The notes below the pieces were generated by a model. The model worked only from the letters and a program-made list of their open reading frames with translations, made no database searches and was not told the origin of the DNA. A DNA stretch of 32,099 bases, taken from the NCBI GenBank assembly GCA_937138605.1, contig CAKZPH010000298.1, positions 1-32,099 on the forward strand, written 5' to 3'. This DNA is from an uncultured Ignavibacteriales bacterium (GTDB lineage: Bacteria > Bacteroidota > Ignavibacteria > Ch128b). Shown here piece after piece: positions 396 through 24,477 of the stretch (positions are counted from its first letter, which is position 1; every line of letters begins with the position of its first letter). The translations under genes and the position numbers were made by a program.

Positions 396-662
396 ATGAT
401 TGAAAAGGAAGTGACAATTTTAAATAGAGCTGGGTTGCATACCAGACCTGCAGCCACGTTGGTTAAATTAGCCTCTAAATTTAAATCGGACTTTTACTTA
501 ATGCAAGATAACTTAGTAGTAAATGGTAAAAGTATTATTGGTGTAATGACACTTTGCGCGGAGCAGGGGAGCAAGTTAAAACTTCGTTTCGATGGAGAAG
601 ATGAAGAAGAGGCTGCAAAGGAAATAGTTGATTATTTTAACAGGGGATTCGATGAACTTTGA
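396..662 (+). CDS. ptsH: HPr phosphocarrier protein
   Basis: 88 aa; GLHTRPA (His15 site) and NGKSIIGVM (Ser46 region) are HPr signatures. Confidence 0.95.
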   Translation: MIEKEVTILNRAGLHTRPAATLVKLASKFKSDFYLMQDNLVVNGKSIIGVMTLCAEQGSKLKLRFDGEDEEEAAKEIVDYFNRGFDEL

Positions 663-2424
663 TTTAATTGAAAAACTAAAAGATAAAGATACAGTCATAT
701 TAACAGGAATACCTTCGGCGCCAGGGTATGCCATTGGAAAGTGCCTCAAATATGAAAAAGAAAAGTTTGAAGTTTATCCTTCGGTGGTTTTGGATGTAAA
801 TTCAGAGTTAGAAGATTTCCAGAATGCTATTGAAAAATCAAAAAAGGAATTAAGAAAGATTATCGATGAAGCAAAAAAGAAAATTTACGATGATAAAATG
901 GTTTCTATTTTTGAGGCTCAGTTGATGGTGCTCGAAGATCCACAATTAATTGATGCCATCAAAAATGAAATCATCAAAAACAAGCATTCAGCAGATTATT
1001 CCATACATTCAGAATTTTCTAAATATATAGAGCCATTGCAAAAATCAAATGACATATCACATAAAGAAAGAGCAAAGGATATTGAAGACATCAAACTTAG
1101 AATAATTAGAAACCTGAGAAAGAAAAGGTGGGAATCGAAACTCACACAATCTAGAATTATTTTTGCACATGAACTTTCAGCTGCCGATGCACTGCTATTT
1201 GTTCGAAATGAAGTTCTTGCATATGTTGCTGAGGGTGGCTCACTTACTTCTCACGCTGCCTTAATTGCAAGGGCATTAAATATTCCAGCTGTTTTTGGTA
1301 TCGAAAATGTGTTAAACAAAATCTCATCCGAAGATGAAGTTATAGTTGATGGATTTCATGGGTTAGTTATTAAAAATCCTGGTCCTAAATTTATTGAATA
1401 CTATAGAAAAAGAATTATTGAATATGATAAACTGAAAAAAGACTTATCGGAACTTATTAATGTAGAATCGAAAACAAAAGATAATGTAAGAGTCAAATTA
1501 TATGCTAATATGGATTTACTTTCAGAGATTCCTTCTTTAATTGCATTTGGCGCTGAAGGAATTGGTTTATTTCGTACGGAAAATCTATTCTTTGATCTGG
1601 GAGATTTTCCTTCTGAATTAGAACAAACTGAAATTTATTCTTCACTTGCGGAAAAACTTTATCCAAAAATTTTAACAATTAGGACATTCGATCTTGGTGG
1701 AGATAAAATTAATCTCATGAATTATAAAGAGGCCAATCCTTTTCTTGGTTGGAGAGGGATAAGAGTATTACTTGATAATAAACCGATATTGAAGAATCAA
1801 CTAAGAGCAATTCTTAAAGCATCAATTTACAAAAATGTTAGGGTAATGATTCCAATGATTTCCTCGGTTGATGAAATTGTTATGACGAAGGAGGTTTTAG
1901 AAGAAGTTAAAAATGAGTTAAGCATGGAAAAAGTTAGATTTGATGAAAACATTCCTTTCGGTATTATGATTGAAGTTCCATCGATTGTATGTTGTTTGAA
2001 TGAAGTTGCTCAATTAGTTGATTTTGTAAGCGTGGGTACGAATGACTTAACACAATATTTACTTGCTGTCGATAGAGCTAATCAAAAAGTATTTAAACTT
2101 TATCAACAATTTCATCCTTCGGTTTTCCGTACCTTGAAAGTAATATTAAATGATTTAAAGGAAACAAAAATTGAAGTTAGTATTTGTGGAGAATTAGCAT
2201 CTAATTTTATGGCAATACCACTTTTGATTGGCTTAGGCTATCGATATTTAAGTGTGAACGAATATTTACTGCTTCAAATCAAAAAATTAATTTTATCTCT
2301 CGATGCTTCTGAATGTGAAGATTTAGCTAACAAAGTCTTAAATGCCTGCACTCAGGATAAAATCATCACAATAATAAATGAATTCATGCAAAAAATAGAA
2401 GGAATAGACTATGAATCCTTATAA
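652..2424 (+). CDS. ptsI: Phosphoenolpyruvate-protein phosphotransferase (PTS enzyme I)
   Basis: GGSLTSHAALIARALNIPAVFG phosphohistidine domain; GAEGIGLFRTE and SVGTNDLTQYLLAVDR PEP-binding motifs. The ATG at 652, preceded by AGGGG, is preferred over the TTG at 628; overlaps the ptsH 3' end. Confidence 0.95.
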   Translation: MNFDLIEKLKDKDTVILTGIPSAPGYAIGKCLKYEKEKFEVYPSVVLDVNSELEDFQNAIEKSKKELRKIIDEAKKKIYDDKMVSIFEAQLMVLEDPQLIDAIKNEIIKNKHSADYSIHSEFSKYIEPLQKSNDISHKERAKDIEDIKLRIIRNLRKKRWESKLTQSRIIFAHELSAADALLFVRNEVLAYVAEGGSLTSHAALIARALNIPAVFGIENVLNKISSEDEVIVDGFHGLVIKNPGPKFIEYYRKRIIEYDKLKKDLSELINVESKTKDNVRVKLYANMDLLSEIPSLIAFGAEGIGLFRTENLFFDLGDFPSELEQTEIYSSLAEKLYPKILTIRTFDLGGDKINLMNYKEANPFLGWRGIRVLLDNKPILKNQLRAILKASIYKNVRVMIPMISSVDEIVMTKEVLEEVKNELSMEKVRFDENIPFGIMIEVPSIVCCLNEVAQLVDFVSVGTNDLTQYLLAVDRANQKVFKLYQQFHPSVFRTLKVILNDLKETKIEVSICGELASNFMAIPLLIGLGYRYLSVNEYLLLQIKKLILSLDASECEDLANKVLNACTQDKIITIINEFMQKIEGIDYESL

Positions 2425-3439
2425 AGAATTCGATTCTGGCGACATGTATCTTGTTCTTAAGGATTATCATAAACAAGTAAAACATATCATTAATTCAAAG
2501 ATTGAGATTGAAAAAAAATTGTATTCTTCAATCAATAAAATTGTCGTCACTGGACTTGGAGGTTCAGCCATTTCAGGTGATGTTGTTTACACTTTATTTT
2601 ACGACCAAATAACAGTGCCTTATTTTGTTAACCGAAACTATGATCTACCAAATTTCATTGACGATAAAACGCTCGTTATAGCATGCAGTTACTCAGGAAA
2701 TACGGAAGAAACACTTTCAGCATTTCATAATGCTATTTCTAAAAATTGCAAGGTTATTACTCTTAGTTCCGGTGGAAAGTTGAAAGATATGGCGAATGAA
2801 CTCGGTGTACCCCATTTCAGTGTTCCTTCAGGTTATCAACCAAGATGTGCAATTGGATTAATGCTTACAACTCTCATAAGAATTTTTGAAAAGCTAGAAT
2901 TATACCGTCTTTCGGAGGATTTCTATTCTGAGGTACTAAACTTGTGGTCCAGAAAATCTAATGAATATGCTCACGCAGAAAGTAAACCGTATGATCTTGC
3001 CACCAGATTATTGGGGCGATTTCCAGTGATTCATTCAACTGAACTATTACAATCAATTAACGTAAGGTTTCGTAGTCAACTCGCAGAAAATTCTAAAGTT
3101 TTATCCTACAGTGGGTTTATTCCAGAACTTAATCATAACGAAATCATTGCTTGGGAAAAGTACGACGAAAAATTTTTACCTGCTATTCTTATTCAAATCA
3201 TTGACGAAAATGATCATCAAAGAAACAAATTAAGATTTTCCATAACACGTGAAATACTGAGTGAAGTGAAACTGGAAAATATTGTTTTACAAAGCACTGA
3301 AAAAAGTTATCACTTACGAATCTTCGACTTGATTTATTTTGTTGACTGGGTTAGTTTTTACCTGGCCGTTATGAGGAAAATTGATCCAACACCAATTAAA
3401 AATATCAATGTGCTTAAAGAAACTTTGTCGAAAAATTGA
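2411..3439 (+). CDS. SIS-domain sugar-phosphate isomerase, bifunctional phosphoglucose/phosphomannose isomerase-like
   Basis: GLGGSAISGDV and SYSGNTEETLSAF SIS motifs; C-terminal region resembles the archaeal-type bifunctional PGI/PMI family. Confidence 0.85.
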   Translation: MNPYKEFDSGDMYLVLKDYHKQVKHIINSKIEIEKKLYSSINKIVVTGLGGSAISGDVVYTLFYDQITVPYFVNRNYDLPNFIDDKTLVIACSYSGNTEETLSAFHNAISKNCKVITLSSGGKLKDMANELGVPHFSVPSGYQPRCAIGLMLTTLIRIFEKLELYRLSEDFYSEVLNLWSRKSNEYAHAESKPYDLATRLLGRFPVIHSTELLQSINVRFRSQLAENSKVLSYSGFIPELNHNEIIAWEKYDEKFLPAILIQIIDENDHQRNKLRFSITREILSEVKLENIVLQSTEKSYHLRIFDLIYFVDWVSFYLAVMRKIDPTPIKNINVLKETLSKN

Positions 3440-6254
3440 TTTACTTATTCTTTTCCTTCTCCTCATTTTTTCAGAAGGACAGGCTCAATTTACATATTTT
3501 GGAAAGAATAAAGTTCATTACGAAAAGTTTAACTGGTTCGTTCTAAAGACTGAACATTTTGACATCTATTACTATCCAGAAATTACCGAGATTGCTGAGA
3601 TTGGGGCTTTAATAGCGGAAGAAGGTTATAATGAGTTGAAAGTAAAATTTAATCACCAAATACTATATCGAATTCCACTTATCTTTTACAATACTCATAT
3701 CCATTTTCAGCAAACTAACACCATTCCGGGACTTCTTCCTGAGGGTGTAGGAGGATTTTTTGAGTTTATTAAAGGTCGTGTCGTAATTCCGTTTGAGGGT
3801 TCGATTGAGAAATTTCGTCATGTCATTAAGCATGAACTGGTTCATGTTTTTATGTTAAACAAAATAAGAAGAATACAACAAGATTTTAGATTAACTTCAG
3901 AAACACTACCACCACTTTGGTTTGTTGAAGGACTAGCTGAATATTGGTCTACAGACTGGGATTCCCAAGCTGAAATGATTCTAAGAGATGCTGTTTTAAA
4001 TGGTTATGCAGTTGGATTAAATGAAATAGATAAGGTTTCCGGAACTTACTTAATGTACAAATTAGGACAATTGCTGATGCATTACATTTCAAAAACATAT
4101 GGCGAACATAAGATACTGATGTTAATGGAAAACTCATGGAAATCATCAAACTTTGAGGATGTCTGGAAATATACGTTTGGTGTAGACTATAAAGAATTTG
4201 ATCGAGATTGGTTGTATTATCTCAAGAAAAGATATTATCCCATTATTTCTGATAGAGATTTACCCGGGTATTCAGTTAATAAATTGACAAATTCCGGATT
4301 TAATTTCAGTCCTGTTTTTTACGAAAAGAAAAATGAATCCTCAATTTACTATTTAGGTAATATTCGAGGTTATACTTCAATCTATCGAATTCCTTTTGTC
4401 AAAGAAGGTGAAAGAAAATTCTCCGAACCACAACTTGTACTTCAAGGTGAAAGCTCAGATGAATTTGAATCATTACATCTTTTTAGAACCAGTTTTGGTA
4501 TTTCAAGAGATGGGAGAATAGTCTTTACTTCCAAATCCAAAGGTCGAGATAAGATATACATTTTTGATATCAATCAAAACAAAATTACTTTAAAGCTTTC
4601 TTTTGATGAGATTACAAGCATATCCAATCCTTCATTTTCACACGACGGTAAGAAAATAACTTTTTCGGCCATTGATAATAAAGGTTACAGCGATATTTAT
4701 GTTTATGAATTTAATCGTTCTAAGTTAATTCGATTAACAAACGATCTTTATGATGATAAGACGCCCGCTTTTTCGCCAGATGACAATATAATAGTTTTTA
4801 CATCAGACCGGATGATTTTCAATGGTAAAACCTTCTATAATCTTTTTTCAATCAAAGTTGATAACTTTGAACTTACTCCAATCACAGCTTTGAATCAAAA
4901 TTTTTCTTATCCCAAGTTTACAAGTTCTAAAATTTTATTTACTTGCGACTATGATAACGTGAATAACATTTGGTCACTTGATTTTAATACTGATGGTAAT
5001 GGCAATTTTATTTTTGACGACAAAATGAAAAAAGTAACCAACTTTTCCACCTCAACTTTCGATCCTTTCATTATTAACGATACAACATTAATCTTTTCAG
5101 CCTTTGAAAAATTTAGCTTTCAGATTTTTTCTATCAACAATTTCATATCTATGATGGATTCTATTAACTACTATGTATTAACTAAAATTGGCGGAATGAA
5201 ACTTCACTGGTTTGTTTCTAAAATTGATGGTATCAGGATTAAAGAACGATATAAATACGAAAGAGAGTACACGTTAGATTTTGCTCAAAGTCAAATTTCC
5301 ACCAATCCTGTTTATGGAACAACAGGAGGTGCAATTTTCGCAGTCAGTGACTTGTTAAGTGATGAATATTATCAATTTTTAGTTTTCAATACTGCTCAAT
5401 CGCGTGATGAAATTTTGAAAAGCTTTAATGTATTGATATCTCGAATTTCATTGGCGCAAAAGACAAATTTTGCTTACGGTGTATATCACTTCTCTGGTAG
5501 AAGATATGATATTAGAGACTCTGACGAATATTTTTACGAAAGAAGTTTTGGTGTTTACTTTGCGTTGAGTTATCCGTTTTCATTTTTCCGTCGCTTGGAA
5601 GCTAGCGTAATGCTTGGAAATTCAAATAAGGAAGTCTTCTATTCTTTCAAAAATCGCAAAGCACTTTTACTGACCAATACCATCTCTTACATTTTTGATA
5701 ATAGCCTCTGGGCATCCACCGGACCAATTGATGGCTCGAGACTTTTAATCCTTCTTGGCCAAACTAATGATATAAAATTTTCAAACGTTAATTACTATAG
5801 TTTTATGCTTGATTATCGTAATTATTTACGACTGGGAATGAAGAGTGCATTTGCTTCTCGCTTTCAGTTGTTTATTAATGAAGGAAAGGAAGCACGACGA
5901 TTTTTTATGGGAGGTAACTGGGATTTGCGAGGTTATCCAAGATGGTCTATCAAAGGAGAAAAATTATGGTTGTCTTCTTTCGAATTTCGATTTCCTTTGA
6001 TTGATCAAATATCTTTAAAATTCCCATTTTTAACGGTTAATCTATATGAATTCCGTGGAGCAACATTTTTTGATATAGGAAATGCATGGGATGTAAAATA
6101 CAAAGAAACTCTTGGTAGCATCGGTTTTGGATTAAGAATGAATTTGTTTGGCGTGCTTGTTTTACGGTACGATATTGGTAAACGAATAGAGGATAGCTTC
6201 AGAAGATTACAAGATAGAATGTTTTATCAGTTTTTCTTCGGATGGGATTTCTAA
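3408..6254 (+). CDS. Peptidase MA-like gluzincin + TolB-like (PD40) beta-propeller + Omp85/surface-antigen-like C-terminal barrel
   Basis: ATG at 3408 gives a signal peptide (LLILFLLLIFSEGQAQ). HELVH at 3831-3845 with WFVEGLAEYWS downstream; PD40-like repeats (FSHDGKKITFSA, FSPDDNIIVFTSDR); FFMGGNWDLRGY near 5900-5935 resembles the Omp85 L6 motif; C-terminal Phe as in a barrel beta-signal. Confidence 0.8.
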   Translation: MCLKKLCRKIDLLILFLLLIFSEGQAQFTYFGKNKVHYEKFNWFVLKTEHFDIYYYPEITEIAEIGALIAEEGYNELKVKFNHQILYRIPLIFYNTHIHFQQTNTIPGLLPEGVGGFFEFIKGRVVIPFEGSIEKFRHVIKHELVHVFMLNKIRRIQQDFRLTSETLPPLWFVEGLAEYWSTDWDSQAEMILRDAVLNGYAVGLNEIDKVSGTYLMYKLGQLLMHYISKTYGEHKILMLMENSWKSSNFEDVWKYTFGVDYKEFDRDWLYYLKKRYYPIISDRDLPGYSVNKLTNSGFNFSPVFYEKKNESSIYYLGNIRGYTSIYRIPFVKEGERKFSEPQLVLQGESSDEFESLHLFRTSFGISRDGRIVFTSKSKGRDKIYIFDINQNKITLKLSFDEITSISNPSFSHDGKKITFSAIDNKGYSDIYVYEFNRSKLIRLTNDLYDDKTPAFSPDDNIIVFTSDRMIFNGKTFYNLFSIKVDNFELTPITALNQNFSYPKFTSSKILFTCDYDNVNNIWSLDFNTDGNGNFIFDDKMKKVTNFSTSTFDPFIINDTTLIFSAFEKFSFQIFSINNFISMMDSINYYVLTKIGGMKLHWFVSKIDGIRIKERYKYEREYTLDFAQSQISTNPVYGTTGGAIFAVSDLLSDEYYQFLVFNTAQSRDEILKSFNVLISRISLAQKTNFAYGVYHFSGRRYDIRDSDEYFYERSFGVYFALSYPFSFFRRLEASVMLGNSNKEVFYSFKNRKALLLTNTISYIFDNSLWASTGPIDGSRLLILLGQTNDIKFSNVNYYSFMLDYRNYLRLGMKSAFASRFQLFINEGKEARRFFMGGNWDLRGYPRWSIKGEKLWLSSFEFRFPLIDQISLKFPFLTVNLYEFRGATFFDIGNAWDVKYKETLGSIGFGLRMNLFGVLVLRYDIGKRIEDSFRRLQDRMFYQFFFGWDF

Positions 6255-7411
6255 TGTTATGTAATAAATGTTTTCGTTATAAGAGCCTGATCTCGTTTTC
6301 AATAATGACATTAATATTTTTTATATCCTGCACGAAAAAGATCCAGATAGAAAAATATTTGGAACCTGAAAATAAGTGGCAGTCTTTTGGATATGATTCT
6401 TCAAGAAATTTTTACATACGAAGCGATCTTAAATTACCACTTAAACAGAAGTGGGAAGTAGAGTTAGAAGCTGGTATCAGTCATTCTTCCATTACATCAA
6501 TCTCGAATTTTGTGTGTGTCGCTGATCTTAAAGGTAACGTATATTTTCTTAATCCTGAAATTGGTAGAATTCTAAGCAAAATTTCATTAAAGCAACCAAT
6601 TCTTACAAGTGTAATAGTCAGGGAAAGAGATTTAATTATTTCACTTGCTGAGACTAAAAACAAAAAATCTCAGCTTGTTCTTTACGACTTGTTAAACGGT
6701 AAGGTAAAAAAAACCTTTGAGGTTGAAGGTTCAATAGAACGAGAGCTTGTTTTACACAAAGATTTTCTTATTGCTACTACTACAAGTGGCAGAATTTATT
6801 CATTAAAGTATGACTTAAACAAAATTTGGGAAATTCAACTCAATGAAGAATTAAATTGTCATCCTGCTTCTTCTAATAATTTATTTGTTACGGTTTCATT
6901 AAAAGGAAATTTGTTTTTAGTTGATATGATGATAGGTAAAGTTTTAAAAAAGATAAAAATTAGCTCAGGAGTTAATTCAGGTATTTCGATAAGTAATAAT
7001 TTAATTTATTTTGGAAATTCGGATGGTAATTTCTATTGTTTCACACTTGATGGATCAAAAGTTTGGCAAGAAAAATTAAAGGCAAGTGTTAAAGCAATTC
7101 CTTCAATTGACGATTCAAGTGTTTTCATCGGTGATTTGCTTGGTAATGTTTATGCTTTTGATAATAAAACAGGTAAGAAAAAATGGGAAACTTCATTTGG
7201 TGGTATGATTAACAACTCAATTCTGGTATTGAATAATCAACTAATCGTTCCTGATTCAAAGGGATTTATTTATGTTTTGGAAAAGTTAGATGGGGGATTG
7301 GTTCAAAAAATTGAATTAAAGGGTAGAGTCAAATTCTCTCCCGTTTTAGTAAAAAACAAAGTATTTATCGGTTACGATGATAAAAAGATCGCTGCTTATG
7401 AGAATGATTAA
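6242..7411 (+). CDS. BamB-like PQQ-repeat beta-propeller lipoprotein
   Basis: Lipobox-like FFISC near the N-terminus; repeated blades such as VFIGDLLGNVYAFDNKTGKKKWETSFGG and IYFGNSDGNFYCFTLDGSKVWQEKL. Confidence 0.8.
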   Translation: MGFLMLCNKCFRYKSLISFSIMTLIFFISCTKKIQIEKYLEPENKWQSFGYDSSRNFYIRSDLKLPLKQKWEVELEAGISHSSITSISNFVCVADLKGNVYFLNPEIGRILSKISLKQPILTSVIVRERDLIISLAETKNKKSQLVLYDLLNGKVKKTFEVEGSIERELVLHKDFLIATTTSGRIYSLKYDLNKIWEIQLNEELNCHPASSNNLFVTVSLKGNLFLVDMMIGKVLKKIKISSGVNSGISISNNLIYFGNSDGNFYCFTLDGSKVWQEKLKASVKAIPSIDDSSVFIGDLLGNVYAFDNKTGKKKWETSFGGMINNSILVLNNQLIVPDSKGFIYVLEKLDGGLVQKIELKGRVKFSPVLVKNKVFIGYDDKKIAAYEND

Positions 7412-8102
7412 GTTGAAATACATTTTACTCTGGATACTTACGTATTCATACATGAGCGCTCAAAATGATTATGTGCGATTACAGGTCAAACTTGATAATG
7501 ATTATGGCATTTTTATAAATCAATACTTTTTAGGTGAATCAAAATTACTTGACACAAATCTTAAATCAGGTATTTATGAAATTAAATTAGTACGAATTAG
7601 TGACTTTTCATTATTAAAAAAGAAGATAAATTTTGATAGGGATTCAAAAATTGAAATAAAAAGTCTTCGCTCAATTCTAATTTCGACAAGTCCTGTAAAC
7701 GCTCATGTGTATGTTGATTCAATTTTTTATGGTTATACTCCACTCAAGATTTTATTTAATTCGTCAGATCAAAAAATTGAAATACAAAAAAACGGTTTTA
7801 AACCAGTATCACTAAATACATCTGAGATCAACCAAGATTTTTTAGATATAAGTATGGAACCTGAATATAGTTTGAAGAAGCCAAATTCAAGTTTTTATAA
7901 GTTTCTTACTTTGGGCTCAATGATTTTAAGTGGAATAATTTCTGTTCAATTCAAAAACAAAGCCAATAAACTTTACGAGGAATCAAAAATAAATCCAGAT
8001 TTAATGAAAAAAGTCCGAAAATACGATACCATTTCAGCTATATTTTCCATCAGCTTGCAAATTAATTTTGGTATTTTTACATATTTGATTTTAACGGAAT
8101 AG
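7398..8102 (+). CDS. PEGA-domain exported protein
   Basis: Signal peptide (ILLWILTYSYMSAQ) and PEGA-like STSPVNAHVYVDSIFYGYTPLKI...IEIQKNGFKP. Confidence 0.65.
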   Translation: MRMIKLKYILLWILTYSYMSAQNDYVRLQVKLDNDYGIFINQYFLGESKLLDTNLKSGIYEIKLVRISDFSLLKKKINFDRDSKIEIKSLRSILISTSPVNAHVYVDSIFYGYTPLKILFNSSDQKIEIQKNGFKPVSLNTSEINQDFLDISMEPEYSLKKPNSSFYKFLTLGSMILSGIISVQFKNKANKLYEESKINPDLMKKVRKYDTISAIFSISLQINFGIFTYLILTE

Positions 8103-8112
8103 TCAAAAATAA

Positions 8113-8685
8113 ATGAGGAAAAGAATGAAACAGCTAATCTTTTTGATCTCTGTCGTAACTCTTGTTTCAATTTTAGTTAGTTGTTCAAAAAATGATGAAG
8201 AAGATTTGTTCAAAACAGCAAAGGAGGATTTACAAAATCAAAATTTGGAAGGGGCAAAAAATAATTTAGAAAAACTTGTTAATAAAAATCCCTATTCTGA
8301 ATTTGCACCTGAGGCATTTTTTATCCTGGGTCAAATTTATCAATCAATGGAAACAGATTCAATTCACCGAATTGAATACAATAAAATTGCAATTGATTAT
8401 TACAATCAATTAATCAATAACTTTCCCAACCACGAAAAAGCTCCCGAAGCACTTTTCATGGTTGCCTTTATTAATGCAGAAATTTTCAAAGATTATAACA
8501 CGGCGGGATTGAATTATAGAAAGTTTTTGAAAATGTATCCAACACACGAACTTGCCGAATCTGCGAGATTGGAACTCGAATTTTTAGGAAAATCACCAGA
8601 GGAAATATTAAAACTTCATGGCATTGGTGATGAAAGCAAAGCAAGTAAATTGAAATCAATGAAAACAAAAGCTACGAATAAATGA
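8113..8685 (+). CDS. TPR lipoprotein, BamD-like outer membrane assembly factor
   Basis: Lipobox-like SILVSC; tandem TPR-like helices with BamD/YfiO features (NPYSEFAPEAFFILGQIYQ, YYNQLINNFPNHEKAPEALFMVAFI). An ATG at 8125 is an alternative start. Confidence 0.7.
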   Translation: MRKRMKQLIFLISVVTLVSILVSCSKNDEEDLFKTAKEDLQNQNLEGAKNNLEKLVNKNPYSEFAPEAFFILGQIYQSMETDSIHRIEYNKIAIDYYNQLINNFPNHEKAPEALFMVAFINAEIFKDYNTAGLNYRKFLKMYPTHELAESARLELEFLGKSPEEILKLHGIGDESKASKLKSMKTKATNK

Positions 8686-9584
8686 AAATCAGAACAGATT
8701 ATAGAGAATTACTTTCACCTGAAATTATTTCAAAAATTGCACGACTTGATTTAAGAGCAAGATTTATTGTAGAAGGGTTTATGATTGGGCTTCACAAAAG
8801 TCCATATCACGGATTCAGTGTGGAGTTTTCAGAACACAGGCAATATATCCCGGGTGATGATGTTTCCAAAATTGATTGGAAAGTTTTTGCTCGAACGGAT
8901 AAATTTTTTATCAAGCAATACGAAGAAGAGACTAATCTAAAAAGCTACATTTTAATTGACATAAGTAACTCAATGTCCTATACCAGTAAAATAATTACAA
9001 AATTCCAGTATGCAATAACCTTGGGTTCAGTTTTGGCGTATTTATTATTCGATCAAAATGATTCAGTTGGACTAGTACTTTATTCTGATAAAATTGAACA
9101 TCTCATCGAATCACGTGCGTCAAAATCGAATTTGAAAGAAATTTTCAAAACACTCGCTACCTGCAGTACAAAAGGTAGAACCGATATATCTACTTGTCTT
9201 GACGTAATTGCCGATAAAATCAAGAAAAGAGGATTGATAATTATTATTTCCGATTTTTTTGATAGTCTTGATAACATAATTGCATCTATTAAAAAATTTA
9301 AGTCTAAACAAAATGAAATTATTGCATTTCAAATTCTCGATGAGCAGGAGATTAAATTTGATTTTACAAGTGATTTCATTTTCAAAGATCTTGAGTCCAG
9401 TGAAGAATTAATCACTCAACCGATGCAAATAAGAGGTTCTTATAATCAACTTGTAAAAGATTTCCTTGAGGAGCTAAATCGAACTTTGCTAGATAATAAG
9501 GTCGACTATAATTTAATAAAAACGACGGACTCGTTCGATAAGGCACTACTTGAGTTTTTAAAGAAAAGGAAAAGATTACATTAA
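8682..9584 (+). CDS. DUF58 family (vWA-like) protein
   Basis: EHRQYIPGDDVSKIDWKVFARTDKFFIKQYEEE is the DUF58 signature; MIDAS-like DISNSMS; 4-nt ATGA overlap with the upstream gene. Confidence 0.9.
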   Translation: MKIRTDYRELLSPEIISKIARLDLRARFIVEGFMIGLHKSPYHGFSVEFSEHRQYIPGDDVSKIDWKVFARTDKFFIKQYEEETNLKSYILIDISNSMSYTSKIITKFQYAITLGSVLAYLLFDQNDSVGLVLYSDKIEHLIESRASKSNLKEIFKTLATCSTKGRTDISTCLDVIADKIKKRGLIIIISDFFDSLDNIIASIKKFKSKQNEIIAFQILDEQEIKFDFTSDFIFKDLESSEELITQPMQIRGSYNQLVKDFLEELNRTLLDNKVDYNLIKTTDSFDKALLEFLKKRKRLH

Positions 9585-10971: not shown

Positions 10972-12600
10972 TTATTGAATTTCAATTATCTGATGATCAA
11001 AAATTTCGATATTTAGATTATCATAGAGAAAATCGATAAAATCAAGTGAATATTTATTAGCGAAGTAAATAAAATTTATTTCCCGCTCTTGTAAATTTCC
11101 ATCAGGATACAAAATATTACCAGCTTTGTAAATCTGACGAAGTACTATTTCGTTTTTCTTTTGATGAGCGGCTATGGTTTTTTCTTTTACCACGTTAAGA
11201 TATGTTTCGGTTTTTTGTTTAGCGTTTTCTACAACATCTCTAAGTGTCTGCTCTATTGTAATTAGTGTTTCTTTTAAATGTTCGTATGATTTATCAATTT
11301 CACTTTTTACTTCATCAAAAATTGAACTAATAGAAATGTTAAGATTTTTTTCTGCTACATTCTTTACCAATACTTCAATATCGCCATAAAAATTCGATAC
11401 ACTTAAATAGTATTTTTCGAGTATACTTTTGACTTTACTTTCCAGAAGAGTTGCACTTGCACGGGGATATAAGATTGGTGGATGAAGATTATGGAAACTA
11501 TAATAAGGATAAATTTGAGCGTGATAATTTATTTCTGAAGGACCAGCAACGTAATATGCAGTTGGAAGTAAATAATCTTGACAGATGGGTCTCAGTACCA
11601 CATTTGGGCTAAATTTTTCTGGTGAATTTTCGATTTCGCTTAGAAGCTTTTCGTAAGTGAATTTTTTTCTCTTATTTTTTAATCTAAATTCGTTATTTAA
11701 GTCAGGTTCAATTAAATACCTTCCACCATCTTCGAAGTAAAATAAGTTTATGGGCTTAATTTTTACTTGGGCAGAGAACTGTTCTTCTATTTTCGCACTT
11801 CTTAAAATTAATTCTTCTGAAATAAATGAAAATTTTTCAATGTCTTTTGCAAAAATTGGTGAGAGCCACTTTTTTACTTCTAAATCATTGGAATCAAGTA
11901 AAATTAAACCATACTTATCGAAAAAATGTTTGACCAATCCAACAAATGCGGACTTAAACGTTGCTCCCGGGAAATAGTAAGACTGAACGATATCCATTAA
12001 TTGTGATTGGAACTCTGTGTCTCTTAGAGATGAACGAAGAGTGATGATAAAATCATTAAAACTTAAATTAAATTGATTCTCACCAATTGGACCACGATTT
12101 GTTTCAGGTTCCTTACCATCGTTGTATGTTATTTTAACAAGATTATTCTGGTTATCAAGAATTTTTATCCAATTAACTTCATCAAAATCGTGATCTTCAC
12201 TTTCGAGCCAGAAGACAGGTACAAATTTTAGTTCAGGATATTGAATGTTTAACTTTTCAGCTAGTTTTATTGTCGTAATGATTTTATAAAAAGTATAAAG
12301 CGGTCCACTTAAAATTCCAAGTTGTTGACCTGTTACAATTGCAAAAGTATTCTCAGATAGTAGATGATTTAAATTTTGAATTGTTTTTTCGGAGCTATTC
12401 TCTGTAATATTTTGTCTTTTTAAGATATGGACGAGTTTTTCACGATGCTCTAAGTTTTTGTTATAATTTTCAAGATTTTTTACTAACTCCTGTTCATCAC
12501 GGAAATTGGTTGGGTAAAAATCCCTTACGTTTTCGTAGTTGTAAAGAAAATTAAGAAATAATGCCGAGGTTTCTGGAATTACAGAAAATTTGATATACAT
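10972..12600 (-). CDS. bshC: Bacillithiol biosynthesis cysteine-adding enzyme BshC
   Basis: TGQQLGILSGPLYTFYKIITTIKLAE and VPVFWLESEDHDFDEVNW are characteristic of BshC; ATG start at 12600. Confidence 0.93.
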   Translation of the reverse strand: MYIKFSVIPETSALFLNFLYNYENVRDFYPTNFRDEQELVKNLENYNKNLEHREKLVHILKRQNITENSSEKTIQNLNHLLSENTFAIVTGQQLGILSGPLYTFYKIITTIKLAEKLNIQYPELKFVPVFWLESEDHDFDEVNWIKILDNQNNLVKITYNDGKEPETNRGPIGENQFNLSFNDFIITLRSSLRDTEFQSQLMDIVQSYYFPGATFKSAFVGLVKHFFDKYGLILLDSNDLEVKKWLSPIFAKDIEKFSFISEELILRSAKIEEQFSAQVKIKPINLFYFEDGGRYLIEPDLNNEFRLKNKRKKFTYEKLLSEIENSPEKFSPNVVLRPICQDYLLPTAYYVAGPSEINYHAQIYPYYSFHNLHPPILYPRASATLLESKVKSILEKYYLSVSNFYGDIEVLVKNVAEKNLNISISSIFDEVKSEIDKSYEHLKETLITIEQTLRDVVENAKQKTETYLNVVKEKTIAAHQKKNEIVLRQIYKAGNILYPDGNLQEREINFIYFANKYSLDFIDFLYDNLNIEIFDHQIIEIQ

Positions 12601-12648
12601 TTTTTTATCCAATCATTGTTTATTTATAACAGGTGTATTCAATCGTTA

Positions 12649-12764: not shown

Positions 12765-13769
12765 TTGGACTTGAAATATTTAATTTCATTTAGCAATACA
12801 TTGCTATTACTTTTCAAAAAATACGGAATTTACTTACTTAAGGTATTTGTAACCGTTGGATTGTTAGCATACTTTTTAACTCGAATTAAATTTGAAAAAA
12901 TTCTTTTTGGATTGAAGTTTGTTGATTTTTCTATATTCGGTGTTGTTGTGTTGTTGTTTTTTGTAAACCTTTTTCTTCAATTCGTTCGGTGGAAAACACT
13001 TGTAAAGACAGTAGCAAAGAATGTTCAGACTAAAGAGATTCTGGAATCGTTGCTCATTGGAATTTCAGCGGGGTCTTTTACACCAGGCCGTACAGGTGAA
13101 TATTTTTTACGAAAATTACCATTGAAAGAAGTATCATTTTCAACAGTTATAACATTGACTTTTATTGATAAAATGATGCTTTTAATTAATGTCATTTTTT
13201 GGGGCTCGATTGTCAGTTTTGGTATGATGATATATTATTATAATGTTGATTGGTTTATTGTCTTTTCACTTTTCATAATTTTTGTTTCTGTTTTTGCAGG
13301 CTTATTTTCATTACTTTACTCTAAAAGGTTTTATAACTTTCTGAAAGATATCATATCAAAATTGCCAATGAAATTTGAATTGGTAAAAAAACTCATAAAA
13401 CCTTTAGCTGAGTTAGATAATAAATTAATCTCAAAACTACTTGTTCTTGCTTTTTTGAATTTTAGTGTAATAATTTTTCAATTCTCACTAATTGTTTTTG
13501 CTTTCGATAGTCACTTAAGGTTTGAAAATTTAGTTATAGCTTCAATCCTGGTTTTCTTTGGTAAAACTTTAATTCCAGCTATCTCCTTGGGAGAAATAGG
13601 AGTTAGAGAAGGAGCTTCAATATATTTCTTTGGTATTTTTGGATGTAGTGAATCATTTGCATTCAATGCATCTCTTCTTCTTTTCGTTGTGAACTTATTT
13701 CTTCCTTCTTTAGTCGGTTTAATTCTACTTCTAAAACTCAAAAGAATAGATAGAAATTGGCAAGTATAA
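12765..13769 (+). CDS. Flippase-like/lysylphosphatidylglycerol synthase TM-region family membrane protein
   Basis: Multi-TM protein with SAGSFTPGRTGEYFLRK and SLGEIGVREGASIYFF, typical of the UPF0104/LPG_synthase_TM family. TTG start, uncertain. Confidence 0.8.
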   Translation: MDLKYLISFSNTLLLLFKKYGIYLLKVFVTVGLLAYFLTRIKFEKILFGLKFVDFSIFGVVVLLFFVNLFLQFVRWKTLVKTVAKNVQTKEILESLLIGISAGSFTPGRTGEYFLRKLPLKEVSFSTVITLTFIDKMMLLINVIFWGSIVSFGMMIYYYNVDWFIVFSLFIIFVSVFAGLFSLLYSKRFYNFLKDIISKLPMKFELVKKLIKPLAELDNKLISKLLVLAFLNFSVIIFQFSLIVFAFDSHLRFENLVIASILVFFGKTLIPAISLGEIGVREGASIYFFGIFGCSESFAFNASLLLFVVNLFLPSLVGLILLLKLKRIDRNWQV

Positions 13770-14905
13770 CTTTATTCCCCAATCTAGTTTGGCTTCTTTT
13801 TTTGATTTATATACTTTTTCTAATTTTTTTGTTTACAGGAATGTTTCGGCTGAAAAGCAGGAAATTTATCAATAATCTAAAAGCCTCAGTTATAATACCA
13901 TTTAGAAACGAAGCCGAAAAACTTTACCGATGTGTTGAATCAGTTTTAAATCAATCACTCTCAAAAGTTAGATATGAAATTATACTCGTGGATGATCATT
14001 CAACAGATGATTATGAAAATTACATCAAGCATTTTATAGATCAAAATATGGTGAGAATAATAAAATTAAAATCCGATTTAGATGGATATGGGAAAAAAAA
14101 TGCTATCGAGAAAGGAATTCAAGTAGCTAACAACGAAATTATTGTAACCACTGATGCGGACTGTTATCATCAAAAAGATTGGCTGAAAACGATGATTGAA
14201 AGTTTTGATGAAAAAACAGGTTTTGTTGCAGGTAAAGTCATATATGATGGATGTAAAAATTTTTTTGAGGAAATTCAAAAAATTGAATTTGCCAGTCTTG
14301 TTAGTATTGGAGCATCTTTCATTGGAAATAAATTACCATTAATTGCAAATGGTGCAAGCTGTGCATATAGGAAAGATTTATTTTTGAAAGTCGGTGGTTT
14401 TAAGGATAATTCTAATCTTGTTTCGGGCGATGAGGAATTTTTGATGCAAAAAATATGGATGCAATCTGATTATAAAATTGTTTTTAATAGGTCTGTAAAC
14501 AGTACAACAATAACAGAACCAATTTCGAGAGTAACGAGATTCATTAATCAAAGAAAAAGGTGGGTATCAAAAGTGCTTCACTACAAAAATTTTTATGCGA
14601 TACCATTGCTTGTTCTTCTCTACTTGTTCTATTTATCCCTGCTGATATTAATTATTTCAGGTCTTTTTGATAATAAAATTTTAGAACTGAGCATAATAAT
14701 TTTGTCGATGAAAACATTTTTTGATTTTTTTTATATGGCAAATGCGTATAGATTATTATCACTTTCAGAATCAAAACGTAATTTGATAAATCTAATCTTT
14801 CTTTTTCCTGTTGCAGAAATTGCTCATATTATTTATATAACAGTTGTACCAGTACTGAGTGCGTTGACTGGATTTGATTGGAAAGGAAGGGCATATAGAA
14901 GATGA
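13757..14905 (+). CDS. Family 2 glycosyltransferase, membrane-associated
   Basis: ASVIIPFRNEAEKLYRCVESVL, TTDADC, GDEEFL, QRKRW (QxxRW) and C-terminal TM segments. TTG start. Confidence 0.88.
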   Translation: MASITLFPNLVWLLFLIYILFLIFLFTGMFRLKSRKFINNLKASVIIPFRNEAEKLYRCVESVLNQSLSKVRYEIILVDDHSTDDYENYIKHFIDQNMVRIIKLKSDLDGYGKKNAIEKGIQVANNEIIVTTDADCYHQKDWLKTMIESFDEKTGFVAGKVIYDGCKNFFEEIQKIEFASLVSIGASFIGNKLPLIANGASCAYRKDLFLKVGGFKDNSNLVSGDEEFLMQKIWMQSDYKIVFNRSVNSTTITEPISRVTRFINQRKRWVSKVLHYKNFYAIPLLVLLYLFYLSLLILIISGLFDNKILELSIIILSMKTFFDFFYMANAYRLLSLSESKRNLINLIFLFPVAEIAHIIYITVVPVLSALTGFDWKGRAYRR

Positions 14906-15534
14906 GATTTATTTTTATTCATCCACCAAGAATTGTTCAATTACTTTTTAGTAATGTTATCTGGACGAATGTAACAAAAGAAATTCTTCTTACATTTGAT
15001 GATGGACCAAATTCAGAGACAACTGAAATTATTTTAAGAGTTCTAAATAAGTATAAAATAAAAGCATTGTTCTTTGTTAACGGTAAAAATGGAAAAGAAA
15101 ATTTTTCCTATCTGGAAGAAATTTCATCAGAGGGACATTTTTTTGGTAATCATACTGAGAATCATTTGAAAAACTTGAACAATTTATCAATCGGAAAAAT
15201 TCGAGAAGAAATTTTAAGAACTGATGAAATAATTTCACATTTTCAAAATAAAACTAATTTATTCAGACCCCCATATGGTAGAATAACTTTCAAACTTTAT
15301 CGAATTTTAAAGTCACTTAATCTAAAAGTTATGATGTGGACACTTTTAACAGAAGATTATCTTGGCGACTTAAACATAGTTAAGAGAAATATTGATCGTT
15401 ACTTAATGGAAAAGTCAATTATAATTTTCCATAATAATCCCAATGCTAAAAATATTTTACACGATTCTCTCGAATATTTAATTGAAAAATTAAACGAAAG
15501 GGGATTGCGAATTGGAGACACTTTCAGTTTTTGA
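14902..15534 (+). CDS. Polysaccharide deacetylase (NodB/CE4 fold)
   Basis: LTFDDGPN, GNHTENH and RPPYGR motifs in order; ATGA overlap with the upstream GT2. Confidence 0.9.
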   Translation: MRFIFIHPPRIVQLLFSNVIWTNVTKEILLTFDDGPNSETTEIILRVLNKYKIKALFFVNGKNGKENFSYLEEISSEGHFFGNHTENHLKNLNNLSIGKIREEILRTDEIISHFQNKTNLFRPPYGRITFKLYRILKSLNLKVMMWTLLTEDYLGDLNIVKRNIDRYLMEKSIIIFHNNPNAKNILHDSLEYLIEKLNERGLRIGDTFSF

Positions 15535-16642
15535 AATAAGCTTTGGTTTTGTTTTGACTTTTTATGTTTTGCAGCAAGTAATTTTTCTGTATGGTTTTTA
15601 TAAGAAACTTCCTATTAACAAAAACTATGAGCCATTTGTGTCTGTAATTGTAGCAGCAAGAAACGAAGAGAAGAACATACGCAGTTGTATAGAGTCCCTT
15701 TCTAAATTGGATTATCCTGAGGATAAACTTGAAGTGATAATCGTCGACGATTTCTCAACTGACCGGACAGGTGAAATCATAAGTGAATTTACTAGTCAGT
15801 TTAACTTTATAAAAAAAATTGTTCCACAAAAAAATATTATTAGTTATCCGGGTAAAACTAATGCTATTGCTAATGGTATTGAGTTATCGAAAGGAGAAAT
15901 AATCTTTACTACAGATGCGGATTGCGTAGTTAAACCTGAATGGATTAAAACTACTTTGAAGTATTTCAATGAAAATGTGGGAATTGTTCCAGGATTTACT
16001 TTCCAAAAATCGTATTCACAGTTTACAGGTATGCAAAACCTTGATTGGATTTACCTGTTAACAGTAGCAGCAGGTAGTATTAATCTAGGTGTACCGTTAA
16101 GCTGTATTGGTAATAATATGGCTTTTAGACGTGATGCATATGAAAAAGTGGGTGGTTACAAAAATATAAAGTTTAGTATCACCGAAGACTTTGCATTACT
16201 TCATAAAATTAACCGTAATACAAATTACAAAGTCGTTTATCAATCTGAACCTGAAGGGACTAATTTTAGCGAACCTTGTTTAGATTGGAAGTCTTTATAT
16301 CGGCAGAAGCATCGTTGGGGTACGGGTGGAATGGATGCACCTTTAATCGGTTTTATCGTGATGCTTTGGGGCTGGGCAACTCATCTTTTCATTTTACTTC
16401 AAGTTATTTTTGGCACTATGTTTACTTTAACTCTTACAGTTATAAAGTTTTTAAGTGATTTTATATTTTTATCTCTTTCACTCAAAAAATTCAAAATGAT
16501 GAAAGAGTTAAAATATTTCTTTGCATTTGAGATATATTTTATTTTGTACGTATTGATTTTACCTGCAATAGTTTTCTTTGATCGCAAAGTCATTTGGAAA
16601 GATCGCCAATATTCTAGTGATAAATATGTTAATTCTCTGTAA
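15512..16642 (+). CDS. Family 2 glycosyltransferase, membrane-associated
   Basis: VSVIVAARNEEKNIRSCIESL, TTDADC, TEDFAL, QKHRWGTGG (QxxRW) and C-terminal TM helices. TTG start preceded by AAAGGGG. Confidence 0.9.
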   Translation: METLSVFEISFGFVLTFYVLQQVIFLYGFYKKLPINKNYEPFVSVIVAARNEEKNIRSCIESLSKLDYPEDKLEVIIVDDFSTDRTGEIISEFTSQFNFIKKIVPQKNIISYPGKTNAIANGIELSKGEIIFTTDADCVVKPEWIKTTLKYFNENVGIVPGFTFQKSYSQFTGMQNLDWIYLLTVAAGSINLGVPLSCIGNNMAFRRDAYEKVGGYKNIKFSITEDFALLHKINRNTNYKVVYQSEPEGTNFSEPCLDWKSLYRQKHRWGTGGMDAPLIGFIVMLWGWATHLFILLQVIFGTMFTLTLTVIKFLSDFIFLSLSLKKFKMMKELKYFFAFEIYFILYVLILPAIVFFDRKVIWKDRQYSSDKYVNSL

Positions 16643-17615
16643 TTATTACGTAACATATAGATGTAACGCCGATTGTGAATTCTGTCATTTTGGTTACTCT
16701 TCTGACTTGAATAAAACTGCGTTTGCAAAAGAAGAGGATGTATTTAACAATCTCAGGCAAATTCGAAAATTAGGCGTAAAATTCATTGACTTTACCGGTG
16801 GAGAACCACTATTACACAAAAGTATTCATCTATTTGTGGAAGAAGCAAGAAAACTCAGGATGCAAACAAGCATAACAACTAATTGTTTGCTTTATCCAAA
16901 GTTCGCTGAAAAATTGGCAGGCAAAGTTAATCTTTTGCATTTCTCATTAGACTCGCCTGATGAAGAAGAACACAACAGAATTAGGCGAATAAATTGTTAT
17001 AATCATGTTATTGAATCAATAAAAATAGCAAAGTCCATAGGTGAATTCCCCGATATACTCTTTACAGTGACCAATGAAACCTATAAGAAACTTCCGGCAA
17101 TGTATGAGCTGGCAAGAAAGTACGAATTGATATTAATAGTAAATCCAGTTTTTAGTTATTTTGGAAATCTTGGACTTTCAGAGGAAACACTAGATTTTAT
17201 TGAAGAATTCTGTTATGGTAAAAAAGATATATATATTAATCCAGCTTTTATTGAATTAAGAAGAAAAGGGGGCAATGATATTAATGCACCATTATGTAAA
17301 GCAGTTAGTAGGGTAATTGTAATTTCTCCTTACAATGAGATTATTCTACCTTGCTATCACTTTGGGTTCAAGAAAATTCCAATTGATAGACCGATAGTTG
17401 AAATCCGTAAATCAGCAGAAGTTGAATATTTCAAAAAGATGGAAGGAAGATTTGATTTTTGTAAAGGTTGTACAATTAATTGTTATTTTGAACCGTCGTT
17501 TGCTTTTCCAACTAATTATTTTGCGTTTATAAGCGTTCCATCAAAATTTTATTACAGCTTCCACAAATTAATTAAACAGAAATTTCTTAAATTGAATAAT
17601 AAATTTCAGGTGTAA
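16626..17615 (+). CDS. Radical SAM protein with SPASM-like C-terminal cysteines
   Basis: CNADCEFC (CxxxCxxC), DFTGGEPLLH; C-terminal cysteines PLCKAVSR...LPCYHFG...FCKGCTINCYF. ATG at 16626 overlaps the GT2 end by 17 nt. Confidence 0.88.
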   Translation: MLILCNYYVTYRCNADCEFCHFGYSSDLNKTAFAKEEDVFNNLRQIRKLGVKFIDFTGGEPLLHKSIHLFVEEARKLRMQTSITTNCLLYPKFAEKLAGKVNLLHFSLDSPDEEEHNRIRRINCYNHVIESIKIAKSIGEFPDILFTVTNETYKKLPAMYELARKYELILIVNPVFSYFGNLGLSEETLDFIEEFCYGKKDIYINPAFIELRRKGGNDINAPLCKAVSRVIVISPYNEIILPCYHFGFKKIPIDRPIVEIRKSAEVEYFKKMEGRFDFCKGCTINCYFEPSFAFPTNYFAFISVPSKFYYSFHKLIKQKFLKLNNKFQV

Positions 17616-17623
17616 ACACAACG

Positions 17624-18478
17624 ATGTTTAAACGGATTTTAATTTTGAATTTGATTTTAATAACATTCGCTTTTTCACAAGAAAGTTTCTTGTACAGAGA
17701 AAGTAGATTTACTCTATTCCCGGCATCAAAACTTTTTCTGGCAAATTCATCTAATGTTTTTGAACCAAAAATTGGTGTAGGATATTTTTTGGAAAAAAGC
17801 GAACTAGCTATGAATATTGGAGTTAGTAGGGATTTAATTCATTATCATTTTAATCCACGATATTCTTTTGGCTTTGGAACTGAATTTTTTTCATGGTCAT
17901 TACTTGAACAAAAATCAAATTTCCGTTTTCCAGTCAAAGCAGTAGACTACATGTTTGGTAGTTATTTTGTTTTAAACGCGAAGTACAAATACTTCAACAT
18001 CTCAAATCGATTACGAATTAATCACATTTCTGCTCATCTTTCAGATGGATCGTATGATAATCTTACTGACAAATGGTTAGCTAATCAAGAACCTTCAACT
18101 TATAGTCGAGAATTCTTGCAATGGACCTCATCCATCATTTATCGTCAAATTCGGGGTTACATTGACTTAACTTACATTTTCCATACAATTCCAGAAATAA
18201 AAGGTAAGAATATTTATGGTCTTGGTTTCGAAGCTTCAATTTTGCACTTACCTTCTGTTAGATCTACCTTTTTTGCAGGATTTGATATAAGCTTACAAAA
18301 GCGCCTATCTAACAAATTCATAGCTGATAGAAATTTCAGCACAGGATTTTTTATTGGCAATCCAAGATTTACTCACCTTAGAATTACATATCAATACTTT
18401 AATGGATATAACTTCTTTGGCCAATTTAATTCAGAAAAACTTAACCGTTCATCAATTAATGTTAGTTTAATTTTGTAA
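17624..18478 (+). CDS. Predicted outer-membrane protein, possibly DUF1207-like
   Basis: N-terminal signal sequence; alternating hydrophobic/aromatic strands; INHISAHLSDGSYDN resembles a DUF1207 motif (family assignment tentative). Confidence 0.55.
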   Translation: MFKRILILNLILITFAFSQESFLYRESRFTLFPASKLFLANSSNVFEPKIGVGYFLEKSELAMNIGVSRDLIHYHFNPRYSFGFGTEFFSWSLLEQKSNFRFPVKAVDYMFGSYFVLNAKYKYFNISNRLRINHISAHLSDGSYDNLTDKWLANQEPSTYSREFLQWTSSIIYRQIRGYIDLTYIFHTIPEIKGKNIYGLGFEASILHLPSVRSTFFAGFDISLQKRLSNKFIADRNFSTGFFIGNPRFTHLRITYQYFNGYNFFGQFNSEKLNRSSINVSLIL

Positions 18479-18479
18479 T

Positions 18480-19487
18480 ATGAGTGAATTCTATTCTATA
18501 GGAGAAAACCAACCTTCAGGAGTAAAAAGATTATTTACAGGAAAGTACTCTTTTATTATTAACATATTGCTTTTAGTAATTACGTTCTTTACAACAACTG
18601 TGGCTGGTGTTGCTTGGATTTTAGGACCAGCGGCAGCCTTTGATCTAAGTAACTTTTCTATTGGATTACCATATTCCATTTCTATTCTTTTTATCCTTAG
18701 TAGTCATGAATTTGGACACTATTTTGCTGCGCGTTCACATCGTGTTAAAGCAACCTTACCTTACTTTATTCCTTTTCCTTTGATGGAATTTTTTTTGAAT
18801 TTTGGTACACTCGGAGCGGTTATCAAAACTCAATCACCTGTTCCTAATAAAAAAGCTATGTTTGATATAGGTGTTGCTGGTCCAATTGCAGGATTTATTG
18901 CATCAATCATTGTTTTGATTTATGGTTTTACTCATTTGCCTGGAATAGAATTTATTTTAAGAATTCACCCCGATTACTTTTTGAGAGCAGAGGAACCTGG
19001 AGGTCTTGCGTTGGAGTTCGGTCCAAGTCTGATGTATTTGTTTTTAGAAAAATTATTTACAAATCCTTCCTTAGAATTTGTGCCGCCAATGTCAGAAATT
19101 TATCATTATCCATACCTTTGCACTGGTTGGTTTGGTATGTTTGTTACGGCAATGAACTTGATTCCAGTTGGTCAACTTGATGGTGGGCATATTTCTTATT
19201 CTTTGTTTGGTTCGAGAACCCATCGTTTAATTGCAAATATTAGCTTTGCTTTACTCGTCGCATTAGGAATTGCAGGTTTAAGTTCCGAATTATTTGGATT
19301 AAATATATCATTGGGATGGACGGGTTGGTTGCTCTGGGCTTTGATACTAAAATTTGTTGTAAGATTATATCATCCTGAAATTCTCAGTCCTGAAGAACTT
19401 GATCCAAGAAGAAAGTTGATTGGTTATCTCGCAATTTTAATTTTTATTCTTTCATTTATACCAGTTCCTTTTTACATATCGTTTTAA
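18480..19487 (+). CDS. Site-2 protease family (M50) intramembrane metalloprotease
   Basis: HEFGHYFAAR (HExxH) and NLIPVGQLDGGHI (NxxPxxxLDGG) within a multi-TM protein. Confidence 0.92.
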   Translation: MSEFYSIGENQPSGVKRLFTGKYSFIINILLLVITFFTTTVAGVAWILGPAAAFDLSNFSIGLPYSISILFILSSHEFGHYFAARSHRVKATLPYFIPFPLMEFFLNFGTLGAVIKTQSPVPNKKAMFDIGVAGPIAGFIASIIVLIYGFTHLPGIEFILRIHPDYFLRAEEPGGLALEFGPSLMYLFLEKLFTNPSLEFVPPMSEIYHYPYLCTGWFGMFVTAMNLIPVGQLDGGHISYSLFGSRTHRLIANISFALLVALGIAGLSSELFGLNISLGWTGWLLWALILKFVVRLYHPEILSPEELDPRRKLIGYLAILIFILSFIPVPFYISF

Positions 19488-19510
19488 TAAATTTAATATG
19501 AATTAATATT

Positions 19511-20011
19511 ATGGAACAAAACCAAACTAAAACTAAAATTAAAACATTTTATCTCAAGTTCTATTCAATAATTAAGATTTTTGTTTTATTGATACTTTTT
19601 TTGCTTACATCCTGTGAGAAAAAATATGATAAAGTTATCGATCCAATTCAAAATAAACCACCGATTATAAGCAATCTCATAGCTCCAGATACATTAAATT
19701 TATCGACTGACACATTAAAGATAATTATTTCAATCAGAGCTATTGATTATGATGGGAAAGAAGATATTCAAAGTGTATTTTTTAACTCATACTTGCCAGA
19801 TGGTTCACCTTCAAGAAGTAATCCGATTTTAATGTATGATGATGGTAATTTGATTGTTAATGGCGACCAAATAGCCAATGATGGCATATATTCAAGAATT
19901 ATAATTCTTCCACCAAATACAACAAAAGGAAAATATCGTTTTGAATTTCAGGCTATAGATAAGAAAAACGCACGAAGTAACATAATAAATCATTTTATAG
20001 TGGTGAAATGA
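19511..20011 (+). CDS. Putative lipoprotein with Ig-like domain
   Basis: Lipobox-like LLTSC; beta-rich sequence with DDGNLIVNGDQIANDGIYSRIIILPP. Confidence 0.65.
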   Translation: MEQNQTKTKIKTFYLKFYSIIKIFVLLILFLLTSCEKKYDKVIDPIQNKPPIISNLIAPDTLNLSTDTLKIIISIRAIDYDGKEDIQSVFFNSYLPDGSPSRSNPILMYDDGNLIVNGDQIANDGIYSRIIILPPNTTKGKYRFEFQAIDKKNARSNIINHFIVVK

Positions 20012-24474: not shown

Positions 24475-24477
24475 CCC

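Follow-up and report, generated by a model that had tools for sequence, protein, structure and literature searches.

Do four consecutive genes whose products recall parts of the beta-barrel assembly machinery (BAM) make up an envelope system of their own, and which of them belong to it? We addressed this question for a locus on contig CAKZPH010000298.1 of an uncultured Ignavibacteriales bacterium, using a window (the whole stretch of DNA analysed) of 32,099 nucleotides. The original prediction had described four same-strand genes, overlapping or tightly spaced, that encode an Omp85-like barrel protein, a BamB-like PQQ propeller, a PEGA protein and a TPR protein. The open reading frames lie as claimed and domain searches bore out all four folds; the N-terminal metallopeptidase of gene 1, with its intact HELVH...E site, and a fifth gene encoding a DUF58/VWA protein had been overlooked. 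Our analysis reduces the system to the first three genes, referred to here as the trio:

3408..6254, + strand: gene 1 (BAR), with signal peptide, peptidase-MA type gluzincin metallopeptidase, TolB-like PD40 propeller and POTRA-less Omp85-type barrel (Pfam/NCBIfam, motifs, AlphaFold model, Foldseek, hhalign)
6242..7411, + strand: gene 2 (BAMB-like), PQQ/BamB-type beta-propeller lipoprotein (Pfam/NCBIfam, invariant lipobox Cys, model and Foldseek)
7377..8102, + strand: gene 3 (PEGA), secreted protein with PEGA domains and a C-terminal hydrophobic hairpin (Pfam PF08308, alignment of 28 homologues, hydropathy)

Presence and absence of these genes were scored over 61 relatives, using lists compiled by hand from profile-search tables. 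Gene 1 and full-length gene 2 were present in the same 37 genomes and absent from the other 24, with no genome among the 61 carrying one of the two alone; the 24 genomes without gene 1 contained no full-length gene 2, and at most partial matches within longer proteins. The PEGA protein was found in 27 of the 37 genomes with gene 1 and in none of the 24 without it. In families f13, f6 and f8 gene 2 is located away from gene 1 and still co-occurs with it, lying beside the PEGA gene in f13 and f6. Family f8 comprises two genomes with both genes, unlinked, and two with neither, and families f10 and f3 include high-completeness genomes that lack both. Composition and co-inheritance of the trio extend across one branch of the Bacteroidota. 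At two f8 loci (L224 and L225) the unlinked gene 2 lies directly ahead of an apparent lipid A acyltransferase and a heptosyltransferase, as judged from N-terminal sequence only.

Gene order was surveyed in a scan of GTDB r220 contigs that returned 464 relatives of gene 1, 80 of which were kept (labelled Ignavibacteria, Kryptonia, Melioribacter, Bacteroidetes etc.); gene 2 and PEGA at loci L200/L201, and PEGA at L208, were detected with profiles run over all six reading frames and by searching the genome. Gene 2 follows gene 1 in 69 of 70 Ignavibacteria-type loci with enough downstream sequence, and the PEGA gene comes after genes 1 and 2 in 56 of 63 named loci with enough downstream sequence. 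The other genes that flank the trio in the window are:

628..2424, + strand: phosphotransferase system (PTS) enzyme I-type phosphotransferase, upstream neighbour of the trio (domain matches)
2411..3439, + strand: bifunctional phosphoglucose/phosphomannose isomerase (PGI/PMI), upstream neighbour, kept within the class only (domain matches)
8113..8685, + strand: TPR lipoprotein (gene 4), YfiO/YbgF-like, 190 residues, outside the trio (domain matches, gene-order surveys)
8682..9584, + strand: DUF58/VWA protein, conserved partner of gene 4 (Pfam, TPR-DUF58 pair at other loci)

The upstream genes are conserved in the class too, PGI/PMI preceding gene 1 in 59 of 72 named loci and the PTS enzyme I gene being present in 52 of 58, and loci outside the class were therefore examined (11 loci, drawn from seven further families of Bacteroidota). 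Gene 2 adjoins gene 1 in 10 of these 11 loci and has a weak counterpart (E 6e-4) in the eleventh; each of the 10 loci with sequence there has PEGA. In the out-of-class families f21, f26 and f27 the search upstream of the trio turned up neither a PTS nor a PGI gene. Since the adjacency persists in these out-of-class loci, these three families included, the trio is a unit of its own. The order of genes 1 to 3 is far beyond chance and the position of gene 4 is not; the four-gene order that the original prediction expected in relatives holds for the first three genes and breaks down at the fourth.

The genes of the trio are closely interlocked, their overlaps running from a few bases to some tens. 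Gene 1 itself starts (3408) ahead of the PGI/PMI stop at 3439, and gene 2 overlaps the end of gene 1, where an internal ATG at 6254 gives a TGATG stop-start; this ATG is likely the true start of gene 2. The start/stop overlap suggests translational coupling of the two genes. At positions 6240-6256 of the window the start of gene 2 is nested in the codons of the conserved C-terminal GWDF of gene 1 (ATGGGATTTYTGA), and homologues are arranged likewise, with a TGATG or TAATG overlap at many homologous loci.

Canonical BAM components were found elsewhere in the genome, as the original prediction had proposed to check. A BamA with four POTRA hits is encoded on contig C76 in the order uppS-bamA-skp-skp-lpxD-lpxC-lpxA (flanking genes named by reading their sequences), and a true BamD, scoring 101.6 bits, on contig C291 of the same genome (G000); BamD was also above cut-off in 31 of 31 relatives searched. 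The trio and gene 4 do not supply the only BamA or BamD of this genome, and because the canonical copies lie on other contigs genes 1 to 3 are not the housekeeping BAM.

Gene 4 carries a lipobox cysteine and TPR repeats of the YfiO/YbgF kind. It scored 57 bits against the BamD profile (TIGR03302, cut-off 81.4), and its 190 residues compare with about 240 for BamD. Together with the DUF58/VWA gene, which overlaps it, gene 4 is found near the trio in one of 54 named loci with enough downstream sequence, that of the window's own family, and it stands beside the trio in none of the 11 out-of-class loci. The TPR-DUF58 pair recurs far from gene 1 at unrelated sites (L217, L218 and L219), including in genome G014, where genes 1 and 2 are absent. 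Because of this single adjacency and the pairing with DUF58 at unrelated sites gene 4 is judged to lie outside the trio: it forms with DUF58 a separate module that meets the trio just in the window's family. The proposal that the TPR protein is the BamD of this system was rejected on the same grounds, together with its sub-cut-off score and the presence of a real BamD elsewhere.

Profile searches gave gene 1 a PD40/TolB-like propeller and a Peptidase_MA_2 domain, with a barrel at the C-terminal end. The hallmark of MA/gluzincin peptidases, HExxH with a downstream Glu ligand, is present: the zinc site of the window protein reads HELVH...WFVEGLAEY, and all 24 orthologues keep HELVH and the downstream Glu in WFxEGLAE unchanged, for which reason the peptidase is probably active. 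PF13485 matches 23 of the 24, the window protein itself scoring 31.5 bits, under the cut-off of 32.4. The barrel is recognised by PF01103 in 17 of 24 orthologues (best 7e-16); a PF01103 profile search of the window protein gave no match, and the barrel was therefore identified through the orthologues and by profile comparison. In hhalign the C-terminal half of the barrel aligned, at a probability of 96%, with the POTRA-bearing Omp85 proteins of the same genome, and in Foldseek searches the propeller of the AlphaFold model matched TolB and the barrel matched BamA barrels. The Omp85 signature segments GGxWDLRGW, FFDxGxxWD and LRYDxGKR are nearly invariant among the orthologues, 22 of 24 of which end in QFFFGWDF. 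With a predicted local distance difference test (pLDDT) score of 76.7 and a predicted template modelling score of 0.68, the fold of gene 1 is just moderately certain, and it is PF01103, hhalign and Foldseek, not a count of the 16 strands typical of such barrels, that place it in the Omp85 superfamily. A Pfam search matched no POTRA domain in gene 1, the N terminus consisting of peptidase and propeller; members of the superfamily usually carry at least one POTRA domain, although some subfamilies have none. An N-terminal WD40/TolB-like propeller joined to an Omp85 barrel without POTRA is the arrangement of the WD40-Omp85 subfamily, and on domain architecture gene 1, with its predicted Omp85-type barrel, fits there.

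Gene 2 carries a lipobox cysteine that is invariant in 41 homologues. Its structure model (pLDDT 90.5) found its best natural PDB matches in BamB, with template modelling scores of 0.70-0.76 (Foldseek), so that a BamB-type propeller on a lipoprotein is present, a feature that is not specific to BamB. BamB itself binds a POTRA domain of BamA, and the barrel protein next to gene 2 has no such domain. Gene 3 has one degenerate and one canonical PEGA domain (PF08308), and the alignment of 28 homologues revealed a hydrophobic C-terminal hairpin that is conserved (FKxKAD...YD...FG..Y.LL). The window protein has a hydropathy peak at the same end, with only the second hairpin segment exceeding a simple cut-off; gene 3 is probably membrane-anchored via this hairpin. 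Downstream of PEGA, several families (L061, L069, L071, L207, L209 and others) have a string of a Crp-like or PHP-domain gene, a lumazine synthase-like gene and a 750-residue propeller protein, the last of which resembles PorZ of type IX secretion when judged by eye.

A paralogue of gene 1, BAR2 (about 1,050-1,070 residues), has the same peptidase-propeller architecture and keeps HExxH in 13 of 13 sequences. It is located at L073:3580-6789 (contig C301 of G000), with further loci at L084, L171-L173, L176, L181 and L182. In families f1, f10, f12 and f3, and not in others, BAR2 is immediately preceded by RNase R and a TamB-like gene some 1,500 codons long; roughly half of the paralogue loci examined showed this linkage. 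In genomes G001, G005 and G032 the gene adjacent to BAR2 is the only TamB-family match.

Comparison with known systems places the trio near several of them. The BAM complex (BamA, BamB, BamD) has in common with it an Omp85 barrel and a BamB-fold lipoprotein, whereas the trio has a metallopeptidase instead of POTRA domains and no BamD. BepA, which has TPR repeats where gene 1 has a propeller, differs in belonging to another peptidase family and in not being fused to a barrel. This M48 metallopeptidase of E. coli is a zinc enzyme of the periplasm that is linked to the assembly of outer-membrane proteins (PMC8423444). The BAM of Bacteroidota, the phylum of the trio, likewise has accessory envelope lipoproteins; its described components are BamA and BamD together with a barrel of the FadL type and four lipoproteins at the surface (BamA, D, G-K), and the presence of BamB in this phylum has been called unclear (PMC12578637). 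PlpD, a patatin-Omp85 protein, resembles gene 1 in the fusion of an enzyme domain to an Omp85 barrel, with the non-POTRA N-terminal enzyme domain remaining periplasmic, but it is a lipase, has a POTRA domain and forms a homodimer (PMC11116518). TamA/TamL-TamB is an accessory Omp85 system too (PMC12045153), and a TamB-like gene is linked to BAR2; TamA and TamL carry POTRA domains, whereas the trio has none in gene 1 and no TamB.

The closest relative is the WD40-Omp85 subfamily, which the 2014 survey proposes as a platform resembling a BamA-BamB fusion (Heinz and Lithgow 2014, PMC4104836) and which was still listed as poorly characterised in 2024 (PMC11116518). As described there, it shares with gene 1 the N-terminal TolB-like propeller, the absence of POTRA and the Omp85 barrel; the peptidase domain, the BamB-like and PEGA partners and the paralogue near tamB, all present here, go unmentioned in the available text (PMC4104836). 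The survey also has a 'Metallo' Omp85 group, termed metalloprotease and defined by PF00149 (PMC4104836). We rejected this group as a home for gene 1, whose peptidase is not the domain that defines it. PF00149 is a metallophosphoesterase family, and the 'Metallo' group is to be kept apart from genuine fusions of a metallopeptidase to Omp85, of which gene 1 is one. Searches of the open-access literature found no published peptidase domain, obligate BamB-like partner or PEGA member for such an Omp85 protein, no report of an operon of PEGA and BamB, and nothing relevant on a PD40/Omp85/peptidase combination.

Because genes 1 to 3 are conserved, co-inherited and distinct from canonical BAM, they may fairly be taken for a dedicated accessory system, and to this extent the original prediction of a dedicated assembly, quality-control or secretion complex stands, with gene 4 excluded. 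As to its role, we favour, with a little less than even confidence, a conserved three-protein accessory station for outer-membrane maturation or quality control that runs parallel to canonical BAM. Gene 1 would insert through its Omp85 barrel, which would act as anchor or insertion site, and would hold its zinc metallopeptidase and TolB-like propeller in the periplasm; the BamB-fold lipoprotein would be its obligate partner and the PEGA protein a frequent third member, with the hairpin as its probable anchor. Substrates might be some of the proteins of the outer membrane or the surface, bound by the propellers through strand pairing and trimmed or, when stalled, cleared by the peptidase. Such a role would be modelled on that of BepA beside BAM in E. 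coli, but integral to the Omp85 protein. If this holds, an assembly factor of the outer membrane would come with its own protease, and a further accessory Omp85 machine would join TAM (the translocation and assembly module) and PlpD. The exact co-occurrence of a WD40-type Omp85 protein with a BamB-fold lipoprotein makes them a specific, testable pair. We give only a small chance to a bolder form of this proposal, in which the trio forms a stable trans-envelope complex, BAR2 serves a tamB-linked pathway, and the whole gives Ignavibacteria and related Bacteroidota a second machine for outer-membrane assembly or secretion, one coupled to a protease.

Several points weigh against the accessory station. 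Other PQQ propellers also match the fold of gene 2, tetrathionate hydrolase and YxaL doing so as well as BamB (Foldseek), and gene 2 scores 110 bits against the BamB profile (TIGR03300), for which the cut-off is 285. The PEGA protein is missing from 10 of the 37 genomes and is therefore not an obligatory third member. The co-occurrence gives a Fisher p of 1.7e-17 with shared ancestry ignored, and synteny alone is weak within the class, where the upstream metabolic genes are also kept. The modelled barrel of gene 1 is of moderate confidence only (pLDDT blocks of about 53-88), and we infer the periplasmic side, complex formation, proteolysis and the substrates.

Of the competing explanations, the one that survives best, unlikely as we hold it to be, takes the barrel as merely an anchor, gene 1 being a metallopeptidase tethered, like the patatin domain of PlpD, in the periplasm (or at the surface), where it would act on envelope or nutrient proteins, with the other two proteins as regulators. 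The fully conserved peptidase site, the lack of a POTRA match and the precedent of PlpD, an Omp85 protein whose enzyme domain lies in the periplasm (PMC11116518), agree with such an arrangement. The near-invariant Omp85 segments and the C-terminal QFFFGWDF, however, exceed the needs of a passive anchor, and the obligate BamB-fold partner is left unexplained.

Somewhat less probable again is a TAM-like system for trans-envelope transport or insertion, in which the outer membrane would hold the barrel and the inner membrane the PEGA hairpin, with the propellers between them and the peptidase domain serving as substrate receptor. The position of BAR2 beside RNase R and the TamB-like gene in four families, the three genomes whose sole TamB-family match is its neighbour, and the conservation of the PEGA hairpin are consistent with this. 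But the trio is without a TamB-like protein, about half of the BAR2 loci examined show the linkage, only one of the two hairpin segments exceeds the hydropathy cut-off in the window protein, and the conserved active site would be unneeded in a mere receptor.

Conservation of the surrounding metabolic genes within the class would also allow genes 1 to 3 to be co-transcribed neighbours without functional relation; we consider this improbable, as the adjacency holds in f21, f26 and f27, where the upstream PTS and PGI genes were not found, and gene 1 and gene 2 co-occur perfectly even when unlinked. That the four genes, for all the resemblance of their folds to BamA, BamB and BamD, are this lineage's housekeeping BAM complex is to all intents ruled out by the separate POTRA-bearing BamA and BamD, by the above-cut-off BamD of all 31 relatives searched and by the absence of the trio from 24 of the 61 relatives.

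Further downstream, positions 12765-28120 of the window hold a surface polysaccharide cluster with several glycosyltransferases, a polysaccharide deacetylase, a flippase, a radical SAM protein, an M50 peptidase and a FemAB/GNAT-like protein. Four of its open reading frames are without a Pfam match (17624-18478, 19511-20011, 21570-22610 and 22607-23503). A BshC-type bacillithiol gene (10972-12612) lies immediately ahead of the cluster.

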